A stretch of DNA of 34,002 nucleotides from assembly GCA_903925685.1 (NCBI GenBank), contig CAIYGI010000072.1:1-34002 (forward strand), in the 5' to 3' direction. The stretch's first letter is position 1. The number at the start of each line of letters is the position of its first letter. The notes beneath the pieces are model-generated. The model did not search any database. It was not told the DNA's origin and saw nothing but the letters and a program-made list of their open reading frames with translations. A program made the position numbers and the translations under genes. Source of the DNA: an uncultured bacterium (lineage in GTDB: Bacteria; Verrucomicrobiota; Kiritimatiellia; CAIKKV01; CAIYGI01). Shown piece by piece: positions 6,064 through 16,422 of this stretch.

Positions 6064-9000
6064 GTGCGTAAGAATGCTACAATTCCGATGCAAGATTGGG
6101 CGAACATGAGTTCTCAATATTTAGAAAGTCACCGCGCTGGCGGCTGGCGGGGGTGGAATAGGCCCTTTTGGGCGGCGTTTTGCCTCGCGCTGATCTGGCC
6201 CATGGCGGGACGGGCCGTTTCCGTCGAGTGGCTGGGCGGAACCAACCTGGACGGGCGGGTGGCCGTGCGCTGGATGACGTCCGATGAACCTATCGAACTT
6301 GCCTTTCGCGTCGAACGTCAGGATGCCGATACCGGACGCTTTACGGCGGTGCTGCCCGAGCCGCTGCCAGCCCGCGGTTCGGCGCGCGGCGCGATCTATA
6401 CGCTGATCGATCCCAATGCGCCCGTGGGCGTTCCGGCAACCTATCGCCTGGCGGCCCTGCTGGACGATACGAACACGATCGCCTTCGGCCCCTATCCCGT
6501 ATTGGTTCCAGTTGACAAACTCCGCCTGCAGTCGAAACTCGCCGATACCGATCCATCGACCCTTTTCAGCGCCACCGACCTGCCGCTGACGGATTTCGAA
6601 CTGCAGCGCAACCAGGAACGGCAGGCCGAATTGTTGACGGTCCAGGCCATGCTGGCGGCGTCGGCTCCTGGCGCGCGCAAGAAAATGGCCACCGTCGGCG
6701 TGGCTACGCTCGCGGGTGGCGCGACCCCGCTGGCCGGCGCGGGCGCGGTGCAACGCCTGAAGATCGGGGTCATGACCACCGGCGTGTACCGGCTCTCGGC
6801 CGCCTATCTGGCCGCCGCCTTCAACCTTGCCGAGAGCGATCTGCAGACAGCCATCCGGGCGACAAAAGTGGCGCTCAGTTGCCAGGGACACGATGTGGCC
6901 TGGGCGGCCGACACCAATGCCAGCGCCGTGCTTTTTTACGGCATCCCCGCCGTTTCCCGCTACACAACCGAGAACATCTACTGGCTTAGCCTCACCAATG
7001 GCTTCAACCTGCTGCCGCGTCCAACCGCGCCGGCCGCGCAGGCCGACACCAACCAGTCCTTTTTGACGACGCTGCATTTCGAGAGCAGCAACCACTTTTC
7101 GTATGCCCAAGGCCGTTCATTGGATGGACCCCTTGTGGTGAGCGGGACTTTGCCCCAATCCTCCACGGTTTCGCTAACATTCAACCTGATTGAGGCGGTG
7201 TATACCAACGCAACAATTACGGTCATTCCCACGCTGATTTCGCGCATGACCGAAGCCTCGCCCGATACGCATAATGTGGGCGTGCTGGTCAACAGGTCCA
7301 GCGTCACTAATGTCGCTTGGAACGGCGAGGCGCTCATGAATCCGGTCGCGCAGTTCTCCCAGTCGATACTTTCCAATGGCGTCAACACGCTCCTTTTGAC
7401 CAACGCCACCCGAACATCGGCGGGGTACGTGCTTTATGCGGGTTTCGACGTAACCTACTGGCGGACTTATCGCGCCAGCGGAGACGCGCTGGGTTTCGTC
7501 CCGTCGGGCAACACCACGGTGACAATCTGGGGTTTCACAAACGGTCCGCCAACGATCTGGGATGTGACGGATCCGTACGCGCCGTCTTGGATTGAGGGCG
7601 CGTCGAACTGCTTCACCAACGGTGCCTGGCAAGCAACCTTTACGCCAGGGGCGCCAACCAACCGTTTCTTCGCCTTCTCGTCCGCCGGTTATCTCGCGCC
7701 GTCACGCCTCAAAGCCGAAGGCGCGGCGACAGACCTGTGCGCCGCGACAAATGGCGCCGACTGGGTGATGGTGATCCCGCCCTTGTACCGGCTGGTAAAT
7801 TTCCGTAACCAGGCGGAGCGCCTGGCGGCCTGGCGCTCCGCGCAGGGCTTGTGTACCATGGTGCTGGACTACGAAGACCTTTGCGATGCCTTCCGTTACG
7901 GGCTCGACACTCCCTTTGCGATTCGCGATTTTGTGGGCGCATCCGCCCGGTGGATTACTCCACCACGTTTCCTCGTGCTGGGCGGGCATGGCGACTACGA
8001 CTACCTGTGGAACATTACGAACCAGTGCCTGCTACCGCCCTACATGGTGCCGTCCACGGACGTGCCTTACAGTGAAGGGGCGGGGTTCTTCAGCGCCGAT
8101 TCGGGACTGGTGGACGCCAATGGAGACGGCATGCCGGATCTGGCGGTAGGACGCATTCCAGCGGTATCGAGCAACGAATTCGCGCGTTTCGTGGATAAAG
8201 TCATCACGTACGAGTCGCCGGCGGACAAGAAAATGCGCATCGAAGTCATCGCCGATGACCCGAATTCCAGCAGCGGTAAGTATGCTTTCGATACGGGTTG
8301 CGACAGCATGTCCGCCTGTATTCCGACCAATACTTACACCGTTTTCAAGGACTATGCTTATTCCGGAAACTTTTTGACACTCAGGTCTGCCGTTACAAAC
8401 CACTTGTGGAACGGCGTGGGGTTGATGAGTTTCTTTGGTCACGCAACCACTTGGAGCATTGCCGCTGGAAGCGGAGAACTCCTTAACAGCCAATATGATT
8501 TTCGGTGGCCATTCCCAACTATTGGGGTGGGGTTGGCCTGCTCTCTGAACAGATACGAATATCCGGGGGCTGTCATTGGAAGTAACCCATTGCCTTCGTT
8601 TGGCGAAGTGGGTGTCGCGTCGACCAATGCGTTCTCCGCCTTCTTTGCCTGTTCCGGTCCCGCGGATGTCGCCGGGGATCGAGCGATCGGCGAGGAATTC
8701 TACAAGTCCATGTTCGTGAACAAGGCGGCGCGGCTGGGCGAGGCCACGCAGACGGCGATACGCGGATACTGGTCGCAACTGATGAGGTTTCAATACATGG
8801 TGGAGATGTACACCCTGCTGGGCGATCCGGGAATGGTGATTGACCAGAAACGGCTGACGGTGTCCAGCGCCGCGGGGCAGGCGTGGCCACCCGTCGGGAG
8901 CGACTGGATCGGGGACTTCACCAATCTCGCCTGCGCGGTCACGAACGGCGTGCTGACCCAGGGGACCACGCAATTGGTCTGCACGGGCTGGAGCGGCGCC

Positions 9001-12000
9001 GGCAGCGCGCCGACCTCGGGCACGACCACCAATACCGGTGTCTTTTTCGTGACGCAGGACGCGACCGTACACTGGCTCTGGAAAACCCAGTACCTGGTGA
9101 CGGCCGGCGCAGACTCCAATGGCGCCGTGTGGGGTTCCACCGGTTGGGTGGACCGCGCCGCCACCGCGCGCCTTACCGCCGTGCCGGCCGACGGATACCG
9201 CTTCCTGGGCTGGATAGGCGCTGTCGACTCCACGAACAATCCGCTCAATCTCGTTGTAACCGACGCCGTCGCGGTGGCCGCCACGTTCACAAACAATGCG
9301 CCGGATTCCTGGACCATCACCGCGTTCGCCGGTGCGCATGGCACGGTGAATCCCGCCGGCGGTATCCAGGTTGACAGCAATGGCGCCAGCTTCGCGATTA
9401 CGCCCGACGCATATTATCACGTCGCCGATTTGACGGTGGATGGTGTGTCTGTTGGCGCTGCGACGAATTACGCTTTCACCGCGGTCGACAGCAATCATAC
9501 ACTGGCGGCTGCTTTTGCGGCGGACACGCGGACGCTGGACGTCGTTGCGGATCGCGGCCAGGGCGACCCCTCCACGGGCAACCATGCGGTGGACTATGGC
9601 GCCGGACTCGCCGCGCGGGTGACCAATAGCGTGGTCTACGAGGGCGTCAACGCCACGCAATACGTGTGCGCCGGATGGGCCAGGACGGGCAGCGCGCCGG
9701 CGTCCGGCACAAACGCCAGCACTGAACTTTTCACGATTACGAACGACACAACCGTTGCCTGGTTCTGGCGGACCAATGTTTTCCTGAACGTCGCCGCCGG
9801 CAACGGCGGCAGCGTGGATGCGGCCAGCGGCTGGCGCGCGCTGGGCGCCGCCGTGACCATTACGGCCACGGCCGCCGCGCATTATGATTTCGACCATTGG
9901 GAAGGAGACACGAACGCCACCGTGTCGTTGTCCAGCAATCGCGCGACGTTTGTCATGGATCGCGCGCGCGGACCGCTGACCGCCGTTTTTTCGCCGCGGC
10001 ATTATACGTTGACCATCGGCGCACAGCCATACGGCACGCCCGACCCCGCGGCGGGCGTCACCACCAACGATTTAAATGCCGTGCTACGCTGCGGCATCTC
10101 CGGATCGCCGGTCGAACTCAGCCCGCAGACCACGCAATTCGTCTGCCTGGGCTGGACGGGAACCGGCAGTGCGCCGGCATCGGGCCCTTACACCTCCACG
10201 GTATTTCGGATGACCGCCGATTCGACGCTCGATTGGTTCTGGGCGACCAATCTGTGGCTGAGCGTGATCACCAACGGTCCTGGTATGGTGGATGTGGCAT
10301 CCGGTTGGCAGGCATTGGGGAGCAACGTGACGTTGACGGCGACTGCCGGCGCGCACTGGCATTTCTTCGAGTGGACGGGCGACATCGAAGGCGGAGGCTC
10401 GACGGGCGCGGCGCTGACCGTGCCGATGAACCATCCGCGCGCGGTGACGGCGAACTTTGCCTGGGACCAGTATACGCTGACCGTGGCGTCGCCCTGTGGC
10501 CAGACCGAACCGGCGCCGGGAGTGTACACGAACGATTACGGAACGCAGGTATCGGCCGGAGTGACCAATACGCCGTACGAAATAGCGGCGCTGGCGACGC
10601 AGTTGGTTAGTGTGGGCTGGAGCGGCACGGGCAGCGCGCCGGCCTCTGGGACGGAAACGAACACCGGATTCTTTGCGCTCACCAACGCTGCGACGGTGGA
10701 TTGGCTGTGGCATACGAATCTCTATCTGGCGGCCTCGGTGTCGGGCTTCGGCACATTGGACGTAGCCTCCGGCTGGCAGCCGCGCGGAACGACAGTGGTG
10801 GTGCGCGTGACCCCCGACTACAAGAACCATCTTGTCGGCTGGAGCGGCGGCACGAACGGCTGCGTGATGGGTTCGAACTCGATTGCCGTGCCAATGACCG
10901 CGGCGCGTCAGATCGAAGCCCTTGTGGAAACCAACAGCCAACAGAAACTGACGGTGGTATCGGACGTGGGCCAAACCGAGCCTCTGCCCGGACAGTACGA
11001 ATACGATTTCGGCGCGGAAGTGGCCAGCGGTGTGACGAATGCGATTCTGTACGCGGGGCTGGATGCCACTCAGTATGTGAGCATGGGATGGACCGGCACC
11101 GGCAGCGCGCCGGCGTCTGGCGTTGGAACGAACACCGGGAACTTTAATCTGACATTACCCTCGGTGGTGACCTGGCTCTGGCGGACCAATTATCACCTGG
11201 GCGTAACGGTTACGGGCGGCGGAACGACGGACGTCGGCATGGCGTGGGTAGAAGCTGGGACGACCGCCACCGTACACGCCGTGGCAGACCCGCACCGGCA
11301 CTTTGCCTTCTGGAGCGGCGATCTCGATGGCGCCTCGATGACGGGCGCCGTCATCAGCGTGGTCATGGACCGGCCGCGCGCAGTGACGGCGGTCTTTACC
11401 AGCAACGAGTGGTACACGTTCACGGTTGCCTCGGCCCACGGCGCGGGCGATCCGGCGCCGGGCGCGACGTCGCACGAGTGGGGCACGAGCCTGTCGGCCG
11501 GATTAACGAACGCGACGGTCTACGACGGCGTGCTGGCGACGCAGTATGTCAGCCTGGGCTGGACCGGTACCGGCAGCGCGCCGGCATCGGGAAGCAGCAC
11601 GAACACCGGTTCGTTTGCGATTACCAACGACACGACGCTCACATGGCTTTGGAAAACCAATTATTATCTTGATCTGAGCGTGGAAGGCAACGGCGGAATT
11701 AACCAAACCTCGCACTGGTGCATGCTCGGCTCCAACGTGGTTGTGCTTGCCAGCAACGATCTGCAACATGTATTCCTCGACTGGGGCGGGGATACCAACG
11801 GTTGCGGGATTACCAACAACAGCCTGACGGCGGCTATGAATCAGTTCCGCCGCATCGTGGCGCGTTTCGATGCCGTGACGGCGGAGGCTTATATCCCCGG
11901 GGCAAATGCGGTCACGTCGTCCGTGCCGATGTACCAGAACAACATCAACCTTTACCCGATACCAGGCCATCGGGACCCGGGCTTTGGAATCTGTTTCGCG

Positions 12001-13794
12001 ACCTACGTGGCCGACGTGCTGGGTTATTGGGACCGGACCACGTATACGAACAATGGCATCCAGTACTGGAACCTCGTGGATCACGGAGTGGCGCCGTTGC
12101 GCCAGCCGGTAGGCGCCGGACAGGAAGACGCCGACGTTTACGGGCTGATCCTGCCTGTCGGGACGATGTATTACACGACCAACATGCCGTCGGACGGTGG
12201 GTGGGACGATGTCGTAATCCGGCAGCAGTGCAACACCAATCTCGGTCTGGCGTTCGGTTCGACCTTGTATCCGGGTCAGATAAAGGCCTCGACTCCCGAC
12301 CAGTTTGTAACTTTGTACACGCAGATCGTGGTCGAGGTTGACGCAGGCCATCCCGTGGGAGCCGGCTTCTATGGCAGCACATATTTCGGCAGCGCCCACC
12401 AGGTGCCGGTGCTGGGTTACGTGCGTATGTCGAATATGGTTGACAGCCTGCTGTACATCCATCGTAATCAATCCCCTGCGCGCTCGGAATACATCAACTA
12501 TTTCGCCGCGTCCAGCGGCACGGAACGCGACATGGCGACGATCATTCCCGGGGGTGTTCCGGTGGACGGATATCACCGCGCCGGAATCGGAACGAACGCC
12601 GCGACGGCGGCTGCGCTAAATCCCGACGATCCATACGGATTCCGGCAGACGCATTGCTTTACCTCCACCGCTGACGCGGTCTGGATCGCCCTGACCAACC
12701 TGGCGGGCCGCCAATACACGGTGGACATCTGCCACCGCGGCACCAATGCCGACACGCTGCTGACGCTGCTGGCCGGGGATAGACAAACGGTGGTGGCGCA
12801 GGGAAGCACGCAACTGACGTGGCGCTGTTGGACGACGGGCGCCAACTACCTGGTTGTCACGCCCGGCTCCGGAGTGGCCAATGGGGCGTGGGCCTGGGCG
12901 AACTTCGATGTCGAGGTGGATTATACGAACGTTAATCCGTGGCTGGTGGTCGCGAGTCCGGTCGGCGGAACCTGGCCGACGGTTGGAACGAACGCCGGCT
13001 TCACCAACGGGGCGGTCATCTCGGCGAGCGTGACCAATAGTCCGTTCACGGTCGGCGGCGGAACCCAATACGTTTGCGCGGGCTGGACGCGGGACGGCAG
13101 TGCGCCGGGGTCGGGAACAGGCGCCAGCACAGGTCCTTTTACGCTCACCAACGATACAATCCTGGCCTGGCAGTGGACGACGAACCTGTTTTTGTTGGTG
13201 CAGACCACCAATGGCCCGGGCATCACCGATCCGACCAACGGCTGGTTCCAGTCCGGGACCAATACGCCGGTGACGGCGCAACCGGGGGACTACTATCACT
13301 TCGCAGGATGGTCGGGCGATACCAACGGGATAGTGTCGGTGGTCAGCAACCTGGTGAACGTGCCTATGACTGTTCCGCGCGTGCTGACAGCCTCATTCCA
13401 GCCCAACCTGGCGACCAACCAGACTCCCGAGTGGTGGCTGGCGGCGCATGGACTGACCAATGGAGGATTCAATGCCGGCGCCATGGACGATGCGGATGGC
13501 GACGGGATGCCGAATTGGGCGGAGTACCGGGCAGGCACGGATCCTACGAACCGGTTTTCGCTGCTGATGTTTGACAGCGTCGCTCCGGAAGCCAACAGCA
13601 CCTGGATCGTGATGCGGTGGCAAAGCGCGGGCGGCAAATCCTACCGTCTCGAACGCGGAACCAATCTGACGGACCAGGCGCCGTTCAGCACCCTTTTGCG
13701 GACAAACATCACCGCTACCGCGCCCATGAATGTTGAGACCGACAAGACAGCGGTTGGAGAAGGCCCATGGTTCTATCGGATTGAACTGGAGTAG
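6064..13794 (+). CDS. Giant secreted protein with C25 (gingipain-type) and C39-like cysteine peptidase domains and InlB-like repeats
   Basis: A 2576-residue exported protein. The GTG at 6064 gives the longest form; ATGs at 6088 and 6106 also precede the hydrophobic signal segment (WAAFCLALIWPMAGRA) and no Shine-Dalgarno site decides between them. Residues about 215-330 resemble the N-terminal region of C25 peptidases (GVYRLSAAYL, QGHDVAW). The catalytic region, about 565-930, has FFGHATTW with His793 and GLACSLNRYEYPG with Cys826. The 33-residue spacing equals that of His211 and Cys244 in gingipain RgpB. Repeats of about 155 residues follow. A C39-like papain-fold domain (about 1943-2140) has Cys1977 in GICFATYVADVLGYWD, His2112 in GSAHQVPVLGY and possibly Asn2135. 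A pre-peptidase C-terminal (PPC)-like domain (about 2188-2270), one more repeat, a calcium motif DDADGDGMPNWAEY and a terminal beta domain end the protein. No anchor or sorting signal is obvious. It probably degrades or processes extracellular protein. Confidence 0.85.
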   Translation: MRKNATIPMQDWANMSSQYLESHRAGGWRGWNRPFWAAFCLALIWPMAGRAVSVEWLGGTNLDGRVAVRWMTSDEPIELAFRVERQDADTGRFTAVLPEPLPARGSARGAIYTLIDPNAPVGVPATYRLAALLDDTNTIAFGPYPVLVPVDKLRLQSKLADTDPSTLFSATDLPLTDFELQRNQERQAELLTVQAMLAASAPGARKKMATVGVATLAGGATPLAGAGAVQRLKIGVMTTGVYRLSAAYLAAAFNLAESDLQTAIRATKVALSCQGHDVAWAADTNASAVLFYGIPAVSRYTTENIYWLSLTNGFNLLPRPTAPAAQADTNQSFLTTLHFESSNHFSYAQGRSLDGPLVVSGTLPQSSTVSLTFNLIEAVYTNATITVIPTLISRMTEASPDTHNVGVLVNRSSVTNVAWNGEALMNPVAQFSQSILSNGVNTLLLTNATRTSAGYVLYAGFDVTYWRTYRASGDALGFVPSGNTTVTIWGFTNGPPTIWDVTDPYAPSWIEGASNCFTNGAWQATFTPGAPTNRFFAFSSAGYLAPSRLKAEGAATDLCAATNGADWVMVIPPLYRLVNFRNQAERLAAWRSAQGLCTMVLDYEDLCDAFRYGLDTPFAIRDFVGASARWITPPRFLVLGGHGDYDYLWNITNQCLLPPYMVPSTDVPYSEGAGFFSADSGLVDANGDGMPDLAVGRIPAVSSNEFARFVDKVITYESPADKKMRIEVIADDPNSSSGKYAFDTGCDSMSACIPTNTYTVFKDYAYSGNFLTLRSAVTNHLWNGVGLMSFFGHATTWSIAAGSGELLNSQYDFRWPFPTIGVGLACSLNRYEYPGAVIGSNPLPSFGEVGVASTNAFSAFFACSGPADVAGDRAIGEEFYKSMFVNKAARLGEATQTAIRGYWSQLMRFQYMVEMYTLLGDPGMVIDQKRLTVSSAAGQAWPPVGSDWIGDFTNLACAVTNGVLTQGTTQLVCTGWSGAGSAPTSGTTTNTGVFFVTQDATVHWLWKTQYLVTAGADSNGAVWGSTGWVDRAATARLTAVPADGYRFLGWIGAVDSTNNPLNLVVTDAVAVAATFTNNAPDSWTITAFAGAHGTVNPAGGIQVDSNGASFAITPDAYYHVADLTVDGVSVGAATNYAFTAVDSNHTLAAAFAADTRTLDVVADRGQGDPSTGNHAVDYGAGLAARVTNSVVYEGVNATQYVCAGWARTGSAPASGTNASTELFTITNDTTVAWFWRTNVFLNVAAGNGGSVDAASGWRALGAAVTITATAAAHYDFDHWEGDTNATVSLSSNRATFVMDRARGPLTAVFSPRHYTLTIGAQPYGTPDPAAGVTTNDLNAVLRCGISGSPVELSPQTTQFVCLGWTGTGSAPASGPYTSTVFRMTADSTLDWFWATNLWLSVITNGPGMVDVASGWQALGSNVTLTATAGAHWHFFEWTGDIEGGGSTGAALTVPMNHPRAVTANFAWDQYTLTVASPCGQTEPAPGVYTNDYGTQVSAGVTNTPYEIAALATQLVSVGWSGTGSAPASGTETNTGFFALTNAATVDWLWHTNLYLAASVSGFGTLDVASGWQPRGTTVVVRVTPDYKNHLVGWSGGTNGCVMGSNSIAVPMTAARQIEALVETNSQQKLTVVSDVGQTEPLPGQYEYDFGAEVASGVTNAILYAGLDATQYVSMGWTGTGSAPASGVGTNTGNFNLTLPSVVTWLWRTNYHLGVTVTGGGTTDVGMAWVEAGTTATVHAVADPHRHFAFWSGDLDGASMTGAVISVVMDRPRAVTAVFTSNEWYTFTVASAHGAGDPAPGATSHEWGTSLSAGLTNATVYDGVLATQYVSLGWTGTGSAPASGSSTNTGSFAITNDTTLTWLWKTNYYLDLSVEGNGGINQTSHWCMLGSNVVVLASNDLQHVFLDWGGDTNGCGITNNSLTAAMNQFRRIVARFDAVTAEAYIPGANAVTSSVPMYQNNINLYPIPGHRDPGFGICFATYVADVLGYWDRTTYTNNGIQYWNLVDHGVAPLRQPVGAGQEDADVYGLILPVGTMYYTTNMPSDGGWDDVVIRQQCNTNLGLAFGSTLYPGQIKASTPDQFVTLYTQIVVEVDAGHPVGAGFYGSTYFGSAHQVPVLGYVRMSNMVDSLLYIHRNQSPARSEYINYFAASSGTERDMATIIPGGVPVDGYHRAGIGTNAATAAALNPDDPYGFRQTHCFTSTADAVWIALTNLAGRQYTVDICHRGTNADTLLTLLAGDRQTVVAQGSTQLTWRCWTTGANYLVVTPGSGVANGAWAWANFDVEVDYTNVNPWLVVASPVGGTWPTVGTNAGFTNGAVISASVTNSPFTVGGGTQYVCAGWTRDGSAPGSGTGASTGPFTLTNDTILAWQWTTNLFLLVQTTNGPGITDPTNGWFQSGTNTPVTAQPGDYYHFAGWSGDTNGIVSVVSNLVNVPMTVPRVLTASFQPNLATNQTPEWWLAAHGLTNGGFNAGAMDDADGDGMPNWAEYRAGTDPTNRFSLLMFDSVAPEANSTWIVMRWQSAGGKSYRLERGTNLTDQAPFSTLLRTNITATAPMNVETDKTAVGEGPWFYRIELE
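8851..13407 (+). repeat. Seven InlB-like protein repeats, about 465-477 bp each
   Basis: Within the giant protease, copies begin near 8851, 9532, 10000, 10470, 10945, 11413 and 12937. The last is separated from the others by the C39-like and PPC-like domains. Each copy carries a core of the form GW-x-x-x-GSAPxSG, then a TNxxxLxVxxxGxG strand, a SGW segment and a closing VPM-like strand before the next copy. A short extra unit lies at about 9301-9530. The DNA core GGCAGCGCGCCGGC or a close variant recurs at about 9001, 9688, 10165, 10630, 11101, 11572 and 13096, so spacing in the central block is 465-477 bp. Such bacterial beta repeats usually act as stalks or adhesive segments. Confidence 0.8.
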
Positions 13795-13825
13795 TGAGTA
13801 GTGAGTGGTGAGTGGTGTGTGGTAA
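13791..13825 (+). repeat. Heptanucleotide tandem repeat overlapping the protease stop codon
   Basis: Five 7-bp units run in succession: GTAGTGA, GTAGTGA, GTGGTGA, GTGGTGT, GTGGTAA. The TAG stop of the giant protease (13792-13794) lies in the first unit. TGA recurs at 13795, 13802 and 13809, so all three forward frames are closed within 17 nt. The tract lies in the 69-nt spacer before the pqqD-like gene. Confidence 0.8.
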
Positions 13826-13851
13826 AGTGTTTGGCTAAAGGTGATCGACTC

Positions 13852-13859
13852 AGGGAGGA
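13852..13859 (+). promoter_or_regulatory. Shine-Dalgarno site that fixes the pqqD-like start
   Basis: AGGGAGGA lies 4 nt before the ATG at 13864. It favours this start over the upstream in-frame GTG at 13801, whose extra residues would come from the heptanucleotide repeat. Confidence 0.7.
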
Positions 13860-13863
13860 CCAA

Positions 13864-14160
13864 ATGACAGTGGCCATCAATGAAACATACCGGCGCATGC
13901 CGCAGGTAGTGGCTCGCGAAGTGGCGGGTGAACGGCTATTGATACCGATTCACGGCAAGCTGGCGGACATGCGGCAGGTCTTTACGCTCAATGCCGTGGC
14001 GGCCCGCATCTGGGAGTGGATGGACGGCGGTAAAACGCTGGCGCAGATCGCCGCGGCGGTCGAGGAGGAATTCGAGGTGGAGCAGGGGCAGGCACAGGCC
14101 GATGTTTGCGAACTGGCCGGTGATTTATTGAAGGCGGCGTTGATCGAACCGGTGGTCTGA
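13864..14160 (+). CDS. PqqD-like RiPP recognition element protein
   Basis: A 98-residue protein of the PqqD family, which folds as a winged-helix RiPP recognition element that binds precursor leader peptides and presents them to radical SAM enzymes. Visible features are the N-terminal strand region (RMPQVVAREVAGERLLIPIHGKLAD), the family-typical LNAVAARIWEWMDGGKTLAQIAAAV, and a C-terminal helix with VCELAGDLLKAALIEPV. The length is normal for a stand-alone PqqD. The start at 13864 is set by a strong Shine-Dalgarno site. The stop is immediately followed by the ATG of the radical SAM gene, so the two are translationally coupled. PQQ synthesis itself is unlikely because no pqqA-, pqqB- or pqqC-like gene is near. 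I infer that it binds the leader of the small peptide encoded at 15247-15390. Confidence 0.88.
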   Translation: MTVAINETYRRMPQVVAREVAGERLLIPIHGKLADMRQVFTLNAVAARIWEWMDGGKTLAQIAAAVEEEFEVEQGQAQADVCELAGDLLKAALIEPVV

Positions 14161-15228
14161 ATGCAGTGCGCGGATCCAGAGCAGATGCAAGCCGGAGGAT
14201 TTTTTCCCCGGCTCGTTCGCAAGGCCGAGGCCGCCGGGGTGCCGATTTCCGGTACCTTCGACCTGACCTGGCGCTGCTGCTTTCGCTGTCTGCACTGCTA
14301 TGCCGGCCCGGCGCGCGACCGGCGCGGCGAATTGACCACGGCTGAAGCCCTGGATTTGCTGGACCAGATGGCGGCGGCAGGCTGCCTCGATCTGCTTTTC
14401 AGCGGCGGCGACCCGTTGCTGAGGCGGGATTTCGAGCGTATCTACCGCCATGCCCGCGAATGCGGGATGTTCCTCAAGGTGTTCACCAACGCCGCCCTCG
14501 TCAGCGAACGCATTGCCGACCTGTTTGCCGATTATGCGCCGGACTACGTTGAAGTATCGCTCTACGCGGCCACCGACGCCACGGCGGCCATTGTCACCGG
14601 CGACCCGCAGGGGCTGCGCCGCACACTGCGCGGCATAGACCGGCTGCGGCGGCGCGGCGTGCGGGTGCGTCTGAAATCGGTGTTGATGGCCACGAATGCC
14701 GCCGAATTTCCCGCCATCGAGGCGCTGGCCACATCGCTGGGTCTGCCCTTCAGGATGGACGTGGCGATTCTGCCGCGGCTGAACGGCGACATGGCCCCGC
14801 TGGCCCTGCGGGTGCCGGCGGAAGAAGCGGTGCGCATCGAATTCTCGGATCCCGAACGACGGCAAAAATGGGCGCGATATCTGGAGCAACTGCGTAAAAT
14901 GCCGCCCACCAACGCGCGCTTTGTCTGCAAGGCCGGCCGCACCGATTTTCATCTGGATCCCTACGGAATACTGCGTCCCTGCGTGATGTTCCCGGGTGGC
15001 GGATCCAACGCGCGCGTCCTGTCGTTTTCGGAGGCCTGGCGGCAGGTTTCGACGCTGGTTAAAAAAGCTACAATTGCAGTTGACGTTTCATGCCGGTCGT
15101 GTAACAATAATGCCTTGTCAGGTTCATGTAGTGCAGTTGCAGAGCTTGAAACCGGATTTGCGGATCGGTGTTCGGGTTATTTGTGTGACCTGGGCAGGGA
15201 GAGGGCTGATTTAGTGGGTAGTCAATGA
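14161..15228 (+). CDS. Radical SAM peptide-maturing enzyme with SPASM domain
   Basis: A 355-residue radical SAM protein. The catalytic cluster motif CxxxCxxC is Cys39-Cys43-Cys46 (WRCCFRCLHCYAG), in a segment DLTWRC typical of PqqE-like enzymes. LLFSGGDPLLRRDF supplies the SAM-contacting GGDP. The C-terminus has seven cysteines that fit a SPASM domain binding auxiliary iron-sulfur clusters: Cys256-x12-Gly-x4-Cys274 matches the classical first half, then Cys311-x2-Cys314, Cys323, Cys337 and Cys342, with wider spacing than the textbook CX2CX5CX3C. The enzyme should use a 5'-deoxyadenosyl radical to modify a peptide side chain or backbone. It begins at the base after the pqqD-like stop and ends 18 nt before the small peptide gene. 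By eye its last 180 nt are richer in A and T than the rest. The modification chemistry (thioether, C-C crosslink, epimerisation or other) cannot be read from the sequence. Confidence 0.92.
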   Translation: MQCADPEQMQAGGFFPRLVRKAEAAGVPISGTFDLTWRCCFRCLHCYAGPARDRRGELTTAEALDLLDQMAAAGCLDLLFSGGDPLLRRDFERIYRHARECGMFLKVFTNAALVSERIADLFADYAPDYVEVSLYAATDATAAIVTGDPQGLRRTLRGIDRLRRRGVRVRLKSVLMATNAAEFPAIEALATSLGLPFRMDVAILPRLNGDMAPLALRVPAEEAVRIEFSDPERRQKWARYLEQLRKMPPTNARFVCKAGRTDFHLDPYGILRPCVMFPGGGSNARVLSFSEAWRQVSTLVKKATIAVDVSCRSCNNNALSGSCSAVAELETGFADRCSGYLCDLGRERADLVGSQ

Positions 15229-15234
15229 TAATTT

Positions 15235-15240
15235 GGAGGT
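15235..15240 (+). promoter_or_regulatory. Strong Shine-Dalgarno site for the precursor-like peptide
   Basis: GGAGGT lies 6 nt before the ATG at 15247. It is one of the best ribosome binding sites in the window and is the main reason to accept this short reading frame as a gene. Confidence 0.8.
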
Positions 15241-15246
15241 GGGTGT

Positions 15247-15390
15247 ATGAAGAAGACACAGAAAGCCAAGTACGAAAAGCCCCAAGTTAAGGCCGTGGAA
15301 CTCGCCACGGAGGAAGTCCTGAGCAGCGGTTGCCGTGAGATAGATAGGTGCGACGTCAACGGTAGCTTTAAGGGCGCAGACGGCTCTTAA
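15247..15390 (+). CDS. Candidate RiPP precursor peptide, 47 residues
   Basis: This small gene encodes a lysine-rich N-terminal half (MKKTQKAKYEKPQV) and a C-terminal half with two cysteines. Tyr9-x2-Pro12-x-Val14 matches the YxxPxL-type leader motif that lasso peptide recognition proteins bind. Residues 15-25 form an acidic, probably helical stretch (KAVELATEEVL). The likely core begins near Ser26: SSGCREIDRCDVNG and then SFKGADGS, with Cys29 and Cys35 spaced CX5C and a C-terminal Ser47. There is no Gly-Gly cleavage site, no PqqA-type Glu-x3-Tyr and no MftA-type Val-Tyr end. It lies just after the pqqD-like and radical SAM genes and is followed by two hairpins and an HprK-like kinase gene. 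I infer that it is the substrate of both enzymes; the mature product is unknown. It is too short to appear in many automatic annotations. Confidence 0.8.
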   Translation: MKKTQKAKYEKPQVKAVELATEEVLSSGCREIDRCDVNGSFKGADGS

Positions 15391-15418
15391 GCCCGGTTCA
15401 GTTCTTGCGGCGAGTTTG

Positions 15419-15444
15419 CCGGACGTGGAAGTGGTCCGGTTTTG
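15419..15444 (+). terminator. First hairpin after the precursor-like peptide gene
   Basis: CCGGAC at 15419-15424 and GTCCGG at 15434-15439 form a perfect 6-bp stem with a 9-nt loop, followed by TTTTG. It may act as a weak intrinsic terminator or 3' stabiliser 28 nt after the peptide stop. Confidence 0.4.
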
Positions 15445-15452
15445 AGTTTGCG

Positions 15453-15489
15453 AACCGTTTGCGAAGAAAATTCGCAAACGGTTTTCTTT
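15453..15489 (+). terminator. Strong hairpin (13-bp stem) between peptide and kinase genes
   Basis: AACCGTTTGCGAA at 15453-15465 pairs perfectly with TTCGCAAACGGTT at 15471-15483 across a GAAAA loop, and TTCTTT follows. This is the most stable-looking hairpin noticed in the window. It probably ends or attenuates the pqqD-radical SAM-peptide transcript, so that the kinase and downstream genes are made at a lower level. An in-frame TTG at 15442 would place this hairpin inside the kinase gene, which argues for the later GTG start. Confidence 0.65.
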
Positions 15490-15513
15490 ACCATTGTTGT
15501 CAAGGGGCGCATT

Positions 15514-16422
15514 GTGTCAGCACAGCGATTCTGGATCGGTGGTTTGGCTTACACTTACGAGGGGGATTTCGATCTCGATGTGACGATGTGGCCGTCATTC
15601 TATCGGGGCTTCGATCAGCCGCAACCCCTTCCGGACGGTGATCAACTGGTATGGCGTGTGCATTTGGCCGGCTGTGGCGCATCCAGACCGGCGGGGACGC
15701 CAGAGTTGGAATCGGAATCCTGGAGCCTGTGGCGGCAAGGAATGGTGCGTACCATTGCATTCGACGCTGCGCCGCATGCTCCTCCGCGCTGGACGGCGGC
15801 GATGGATCTGCGGGCGGGACGCGCGGAAGTGCGCTGGGATTCGCGTATGGAATACGCCCGGAGTAGCGGCGCGCTGGTCGAAAATCTGCTGGCGTTTAAC
15901 CTTGACCGTTTCTTGACGTTGTACCGTCTGGCCGAATCGGGCAGCGGGATGCTTGTGCATGGCGCCGCGACCGATTTCAGCGGGCAGGGGTGGCTTTTCA
16001 TGGGGCGTTCGGGTCATGGCAAGAGCACTTTATCCAATCTGCTCCATCAAACCCAAACAGCACTTGTGTTGAGCGACGAAAGGGCCGTCGTACGCAAATT
16101 GAAGAACGGTTTCTGGCTTTGCGGTACACCCTGGCCCAGCAGCGCCGGGTTTGCAAAAGCCGCCGTGTGCCCGCTGCGCGGGCTGGTGTTTCTGGAACAT
16201 GGGACCCAGAACGAGCTGATCCCGCTGAAGCCGCCGGAGGCCCTGAGGCGACTGCTCGTTGTGTCGTCATGTCCATGGCACGATAAGGATATCTTCGATC
16301 CGCTCGTAACGCTGGGCGGTGAATTGGCTCAAACATTGCCGGCCTGGGAATTGCGCTTCCTGCCCAACGCGAGCGTGACGGAGTTTTTGCGCGAACGGCT
16401 GGCGGGCAAACGATCGGGGTGA
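15514..16422 (+). CDS. HPr kinase-like protein (HprK-related kinase) of the RiPP locus
   Basis: A 302-residue protein from GTG 15514, chosen because AAGGGG lies 6 nt upstream and the earlier in-frame TTG at 15442 would read through the terminator hairpin. The C-terminal half has an HprK-type P-loop, GRSGHGKST (Gly164 to Lys170 and Ser171), preceded by the family-typical LVHGAATDF and followed by LVLSDERAVV, which resembles the HprK switch region. The N-terminal 140 residues are unrecognised. I do not see the C-terminal signature of true HPr kinase/phosphorylase, and no ptsH gene is nearby, so control of the sugar phosphotransferase system is unlikely. Related kinases occur with PqqD-like proteins and in some lasso peptide clusters, where the paeninodin kinase phosphorylates the C-terminal serine of the precursor. 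I infer that it phosphorylates the 47-residue peptide or its product. The hom gene starts 6 nt downstream. Confidence 0.78.
   Translation: MSAQRFWIGGLAYTYEGDFDLDVTMWPSFYRGFDQPQPLPDGDQLVWRVHLAGCGASRPAGTPELESESWSLWRQGMVRTIAFDAAPHAPPRWTAAMDLRAGRAEVRWDSRMEYARSSGALVENLLAFNLDRFLTLYRLAESGSGMLVHGAATDFSGQGWLFMGRSGHGKSTLSNLLHQTQTALVLSDERAVVRKLKNGFWLCGTPWPSSAGFAKAAVCPLRGLVFLEHGTQNELIPLKPPEALRRLLVVSSCPWHDKDIFDPLVTLGGELAQTLPAWELRFLPNASVTEFLRERLAGKRSG

Follow-up and report, generated by a model that had tools for sequence, protein, structure and literature searches.

Background

The closest described relatives of the system considered here are the kinases of paeninodin-type lasso pathways (PadeK, ThcoK, SyanK and PsmK), in which an HprK-like enzyme is encoded beside a precursor with a YxxP leader and a discrete RiPP recognition element (RRE), and the C-terminal serine of the precursor is the conserved site. 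PadeK phosphorylates this terminal serine, and the lasso kinases need a His-Lys-Asp-Asp (HKDD) motif (review PMC9266682). In the pathways of linear polyphosphorylated peptides (LPPs) an HprK-like kinase and an RRE occur without lasso enzymes; here the kinase, LppK, acts on an internal residue, Ser3, and the clusters described encode a SpI-type peptidase, an NTP-transferase and an MsbA-like exporter (PMC13381572). The YxxP pattern is a leader motif bound by discrete RREs (PMC13381572). The SynChlorMet cassette (ScmC/ScmD/ScmE/ScmF, NCBIfam TIGR04248-04251) also brings HprK-like and PqqD-like proteins together with radical-SAM/SPASM proteins, of which it has two. Kinase activity and the terminal-serine rule are already known from lasso peptides, as is the pairing of a kinase with an RRE in the absence of lasso enzymes from the LPPs.

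The locus analyzed here lies in a stretch of 34,002 nucleotides (the window) from an uncultured member of the class Kiritimatiellia and constitutes a RiPP operon coding for a C25 peptidase, a PqqD-family protein, a radical-SAM enzyme, a precursor peptide and an HprK-like kinase (Table 1). The initial annotation, which left out the PqqD, radical-SAM and C25 genes upstream of the peptide, had proposed that the kinase phosphorylates the C-terminal serine of the peptide, Ser47, in a locus devoid of lasso enzymes. Having placed the peptide in its operon and compared it across the class, we consider it probable, with some reserve, that the kinase of this RiPP operon phosphorylates Ser47 of the precursor, much as PadeK, ThcoK and PsmK do in the lasso pathways.

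Table 1. Features of the operon (coordinates refer to the window)
Feature	Coordinates	Strand	Remarks
C25 protein gene	6064..13794	+	2576 aa, secreted-looking; first gene of the apparent operon
PqqD-family protein gene	13801..14160	+	Pfam PqqD, E 2.5e-16
Radical-SAM enzyme gene	14161..15228	+	Pfam Radical_SAM, E 4e-21
Precursor peptide gene	15247..15390	+	47 aa, sequence MKKTQKAKYEKPQVKAVELATEEVLSSGCREIDRCDVNGSFKGADGS
YEKP leader motif (Y9-P12)	15271..15282	+	YxxP pattern
Ser40 codon (VNGS40F)	15364..15366	+	Rival phosphorylation site; kept in the sister species
Ser47 codon (TCT)	15385..15387	+	C-terminal serine, proposed kinase target
Hairpin	15453..15491	+	13-bp perfect inverted repeat and T-run between precursor and kinase; folding z -4.5
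HprK-like kinase gene	15514..16422	+	Probable GTG start, 302 aa; start in the ORF list is TTG 15442
His149 codon	15958..15960	+	Catalytic His of the HKDD motif; His in 90/90 kinases having the column
Walker A GRSGHGKST	16003..16029	+	Lys170 invariant, 90/90
Asp188-Glu189	16075..16080	+	Acidic pair of the HKDD motif; D188 in 87/90

Results and discussion

Composition of the operon

The peptidase C25 (gingipain-family) domain occupies residues 579-924 of the first gene product (Pfam PF01364, E 9e-47), which additionally carries InlB-type B-repeats (PF18998). The PqqD-family protein is predicted to be the RRE that binds the leader. The radical-SAM protein combines a CxxxCxxC motif with a Cys-rich C-terminus, is 92% identical in the sister species and has many relatives within the class, and is probably a peptide-modifying enzyme. 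In a phylum-wide search with this protein (E 1e-30) all matches came from the same class, where genes for PqqD, a radical-SAM enzyme, a short peptide ORF and the kinase recur in this order. Downstream of the kinase lie genes for homoserine dehydrogenase and aspartate kinase, which look unrelated to the operon, and the other neighbors scanned code for an AcrB/HlyD/OEP efflux set, DprA, a DEAD helicase, two histidine kinases and a ketoacyl synthase. Among the Pfam and NCBIfam matches of the operon and of these flanking genes there was no lasso cyclase/macrolactam synthetase or B2 peptidase, so that, within this scope, the absence of lasso enzymes in the earlier description stands; unlike in the paeninodin-type loci, a radical-SAM enzyme and a C25 peptidase are present instead. 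The SpI peptidase, NTP transferase and MsbA-like exporter of the LPP clusters were likewise not seen among the operon and the neighbors scanned, and there is a single radical-SAM protein, in contrast to the two of the SynChlorMet cassette. Rfam had no match in the window.

The precursor ORF is preceded by a GGAGG ribosome-binding site (15235-15239), and its translation confirms the C-terminal end Gly-Ala-Asp-Gly-Ser read previously. As the sister species keeps it in the same position at 89% protein identity and a leader model matches precursor counterparts in 55/346 genomes of the class, we regard it as a real gene. The Tyr and Pro of the YxxP motif are invariant in the leader alignment, and the core residues Cys29 and Cys35 are conserved in the sister species (L002) and in L082, the nearest peptide outside the genus.

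The kinase and its start

The earlier identification of an HprK-like P-loop protein just downstream of the peptide is borne out by the Walker A motif, by NCBIfam matches and by the fold of a structural model. The NCBIfam matches (ScmC, HprK_rel_B and HPr(Ser) kinase) are weak: the best, to ScmC, scores 24 bits against a cut-off of 125, and all Scm scores lie far below the curated cut-offs. The AF2 model (pLDDT 94) superposes on HPr kinase/phosphorylase (HprK) with a Z of about 11.5 and 2.9 Å over 126 residues (2.6-3.1 Å over about 120-128 residues across the HprK superpositions), and PEPCK superposes too. In its active-site residues (H149, K170, D188 and E189) and its fold the protein fits the HprK/PEPCK-fold serine kinases. 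It has the order of active-site elements seen in HprK, namely His, Walker A and acidic pair, but shares only about 20% identity with it over the kinase domain, differs in the N-terminal region and, judging by context, has a small-peptide substrate. We judged the correspondence to the HKDD motif by position in the profile match to the L. casei HprK; residue counts refer to the 90 homologs having the respective columns (89 for position 189). The acidic pair is Asp-Glu here, as opposed to the Asp-Asp of the characterized lasso kinases; at position 189 the homologs have Asp in 63 and Glu in 26 cases, and hence one or the other in 89/89. The kinase query found matches in 80/346 genomes of the class.

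The TTG start of the ORF list is probably wrong, given the hairpin and T-run that follow it; the L002 kinase starts at an aligned GTG (L002:4631), and taken together with the hairpin this makes the GTG of the window the likely start. L002 has a similar hairpin with one mismatch. Hairpin and T-run form a probable attenuating terminator, which probably keeps kinase expression below that of the peptide.

Elsewhere in the class we noticed single ORFs matching both the radical-SAM and the HprK-like kinase profiles (L020:4715-6733, L101:1534-3654 and L112:6779-9091), whose organization suggests radical-SAM/kinase fusions acting on one substrate. Near L101 and L112 the precursor leaders follow a WxxP pattern (WTRP, WIRP), and the peptides terminate in GAS and GTS.

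Conservation of the C-terminal serine

To avoid circularity we built a profile from the leader alone (from YxxP to the conserved Cys), searched 346 genomes of the class with it, and read the C-termini afterwards. Fifty-three kinase-adjacent precursors were recovered in this way, with 45 ending in Ser, three in Tyr and two in Leu; Thr, Ala and Gly are each found once. Serine-terminated members occur in 20/24 families, the serine being mostly preceded by Gly and, in one subgroup, by Pro. A chance origin of this ending can be rejected for the family when 45/53 precursors, spread over 20/24 families, are set against a background of 9-14% terminal serine in the PqqD, radical-SAM and kinase proteins of the same loci and of 10% in chance short ORFs; the corresponding binomial value of 4e-37 ignores relatedness and is not a probability, the spread over families being the better measure. 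Entropy, computed for the 39 cores that could be delimited by a pattern, is lowest at positions -1 and -2 (0.73 and 0.63 bits, respectively) and ranges from 2.8 to 3.7 bits over the next 13 positions. In nine precursors the terminal serine is the only one in the core.

The terminal serine is encoded by TCN codons in 49/49 cases, with all four third bases in use, whereas 44% of the other core serine codons are AGY. Such exclusive use of TCN fits long selection for serine, to which we give moderate weight because the terminal serine codons of neighboring proteins are also mostly TCN (22/25, against 3/25 AGY): the value of 3e-13 for this codon lock becomes about 0.002 once those codons serve as the comparison.

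Based on these patterns, we propose that phosphorylation of the terminal serine is well supported as a prediction for the family, and that it is likely for the window peptide itself.

Departures from the rule

The main exception is the nearest one. L002, the one further member of this genus and family among the genomes searched, keeps the kinase (73-75% identical), but its peptide ends in ...VNGSFKGY, so that the two peptides have Ser40 in common and the terminal serine is not kept. The initial annotation had taken a terminal serine that is not conserved among homologs retaining the kinase as a refutation of its proposal and, read literally, this is what the L002 pair displays. We do not accept L002 as an outright refutation: the class displays the serine rule, and the Tyr codon (TAT) of L002 is one base away from the Ser codon of the window, beside a 9-nt in-frame difference. 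It does weaken the terminal-serine claim for this genus. The terminal serine accompanies the kinase in 45/53 precursors of the class, but not in L002. The proposal for Ser47 itself, less certain than that for the family, draws support from the family rule (45/53, 20/24) and from the kept kinase residues, with the Tyr ending of L002 and the availability of Ser40 counting against it.

The remaining ends lacking serine are GCAY, EGY, PGT, DPSL, TGSA and PEG. Tyr is further found in L071 and in one L080 copy, Thr in L051, and both Leu ends (...DPSL) belong to one sister pair. It is suggestive that the in-place changes are to hydroxyl residues. However, in the LPP system, where the HprK-like kinase uses the internal Ser3, Thr or Tyr put at that position was not modified (PMC13381572), and the Tyr endings are therefore not obviously substrates. 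L080 (2407-2904) contains two tandem precursors that lack the leader Cys and do not end in Ser; they adjoin PqqD and kinase genes, with no radical-SAM gene alongside.

We also looked, through related radical-SAM loci and the leader-only genome search, for precursors that have no kinase gene next to them. Nine of these with a complete core end in Ser (L132, L133, L134, L151, L152, L153, L155, L156 and L157); the L154 precursor ends in EVLGVGAVV, having lost the Cys and the core, and that of L136 is cut off. Most such loci are on contigs of a few kilobases or are truncated at a contig end, have a kinase elsewhere in the genome, or belong to genomes in which the search detected no kinase and no radical-SAM enzyme either; none of them provides a clean kinase-less comparison.

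Alternative explanations

The main rival is the internal Ser40 (VNGS40FK) as the target of the kinase in place of Ser47. Its retention in the sister species, where the terminal serine is not kept, is in its favor, and it resembles the near-terminal serine of LPP-like precursors of the class (LGNSIIE, INSGNVE). The kinases themselves point in the same direction, as those of the window and L002 branch next to LPP-like kinases (support 92/94) and, like them, have Asp-Glu as the acidic pair; yet this placement is not firm and the stems are long. Moreover, L082 has Leu at the position of Ser40 and keeps a terminal GGS, and Ser40 is not a feature of the family. On balance we consider modification of Ser40 unlikely, though it deserves to be taken seriously.

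A somewhat less probable explanation is that the Gly-Ser end serves some other purpose, such as recognition by a protease, an exporter or the radical-SAM enzyme, with the kinase acting elsewhere or on another molecule. It would account for the retention of Gly-Ser in the precursors without an adjacent kinase and for position -2 being as conserved as -1. Against this, most such precursors found do have a kinase alongside, related RiPP kinases act on a C-terminal serine, and the subgroup ending in Pro-Ser keeps Ser rather than Gly. That the kinase-like protein is a non-catalytic peptide-binding or regulatory protein appears highly improbable: the Asp-Glu pair departs from the lasso kinases, but His149, Lys170 and Asp188 are retained, and Glu occupies the second acidic position in 26/89 homologs, which keep the other motif residues.

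The C25 peptidase and a second type of cluster

Among the radical-SAM-type loci whose upstream sequence extends for 1 kb or more, 30/52 have a C25 gene at most 3 kb upstream of the PqqD gene and on the same strand, a count that leaves out L002, whose contig starts inside the C25 gene. C25 also precedes PqqD in 8/9 loci that lack a radical-SAM gene and contain PqqD and kinase, and it directly precedes the orphan precursors L152 and L157. The loci with C25 directly upstream of PqqD include many of L015-L019 and L051-L116. In the genome of the window there are just two C25 domains. Lys or Arg follows the leader Cys in 34/39 cores. It is possible that the C25 enzyme is the leader peptidase; that it cuts at the Lys/Arg following the leader Cys is speculation on our part.

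A second type of cluster (L015, L016, L058, L060, L069 and L081) codes for C25, PqqD, a precursor, an HprK-like kinase and an ABC exporter, with NTP_transf_5 in L069 and L081 and no SpI noticed. Their precursors carry Ser at position -4 or -5 (LGNSIIE, INSGNVE) and no terminal Ser, and it is beside the kinases of this cluster type that the tree puts those of the window and L002. Such clusters, from the same class as the operon described here, resemble the LPP family, but with C25. At L056, L061-L063, L065, L066 and L120 an HprK-like kinase adjoins a conserved small peptide of the MAKSDAF...GTLGINSGNVE type, and PqqD was not found near these loci.

Proposed pathway and implications

From the gene order, the conserved terminal serine, the kinase active-site residues and the fold we infer the following pathway. 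The PqqD protein would capture the precursor through its YxxP leader, and the radical-SAM enzyme would then modify the Cys-containing core, a thioether, as in sactipeptides and ranthipeptides, being our guess as to the product. The HprK-like kinase would place one or more phosphates on Ser47 of the leader-bearing precursor, by analogy with the lasso kinases, and a protease, perhaps the C25 enzyme, would remove the leader. Generalized to a class-wide RiPP family, with radical-SAM core modification, (poly)phosphorylation of a C-terminal Gly-Ser and leader removal by the C25 peptidase of the same operon, this scheme is tentative, and we think it rather doubtful that it holds in every part.

Among the open-licence papers searched we found no description of the combination of radical-SAM enzyme, kinase and C25 peptidase, nor an assignment of a C25 peptidase to RiPPs; the recurrent C25 genes suggest a leader-processing enzyme new to RiPPs as covered by the papers found. 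The sister peptides ending in Tyr and Ser make the specificity of the kinase directly testable. If confirmed, the proposed reaction would extend HprK-like phosphorylation to radical-SAM RiPPs across dozens of genera of one class, the C-terminal serine rule would hold outside the lasso peptides, and a terminal [GP]S together with a YxxP leader would provide a simple search signature.
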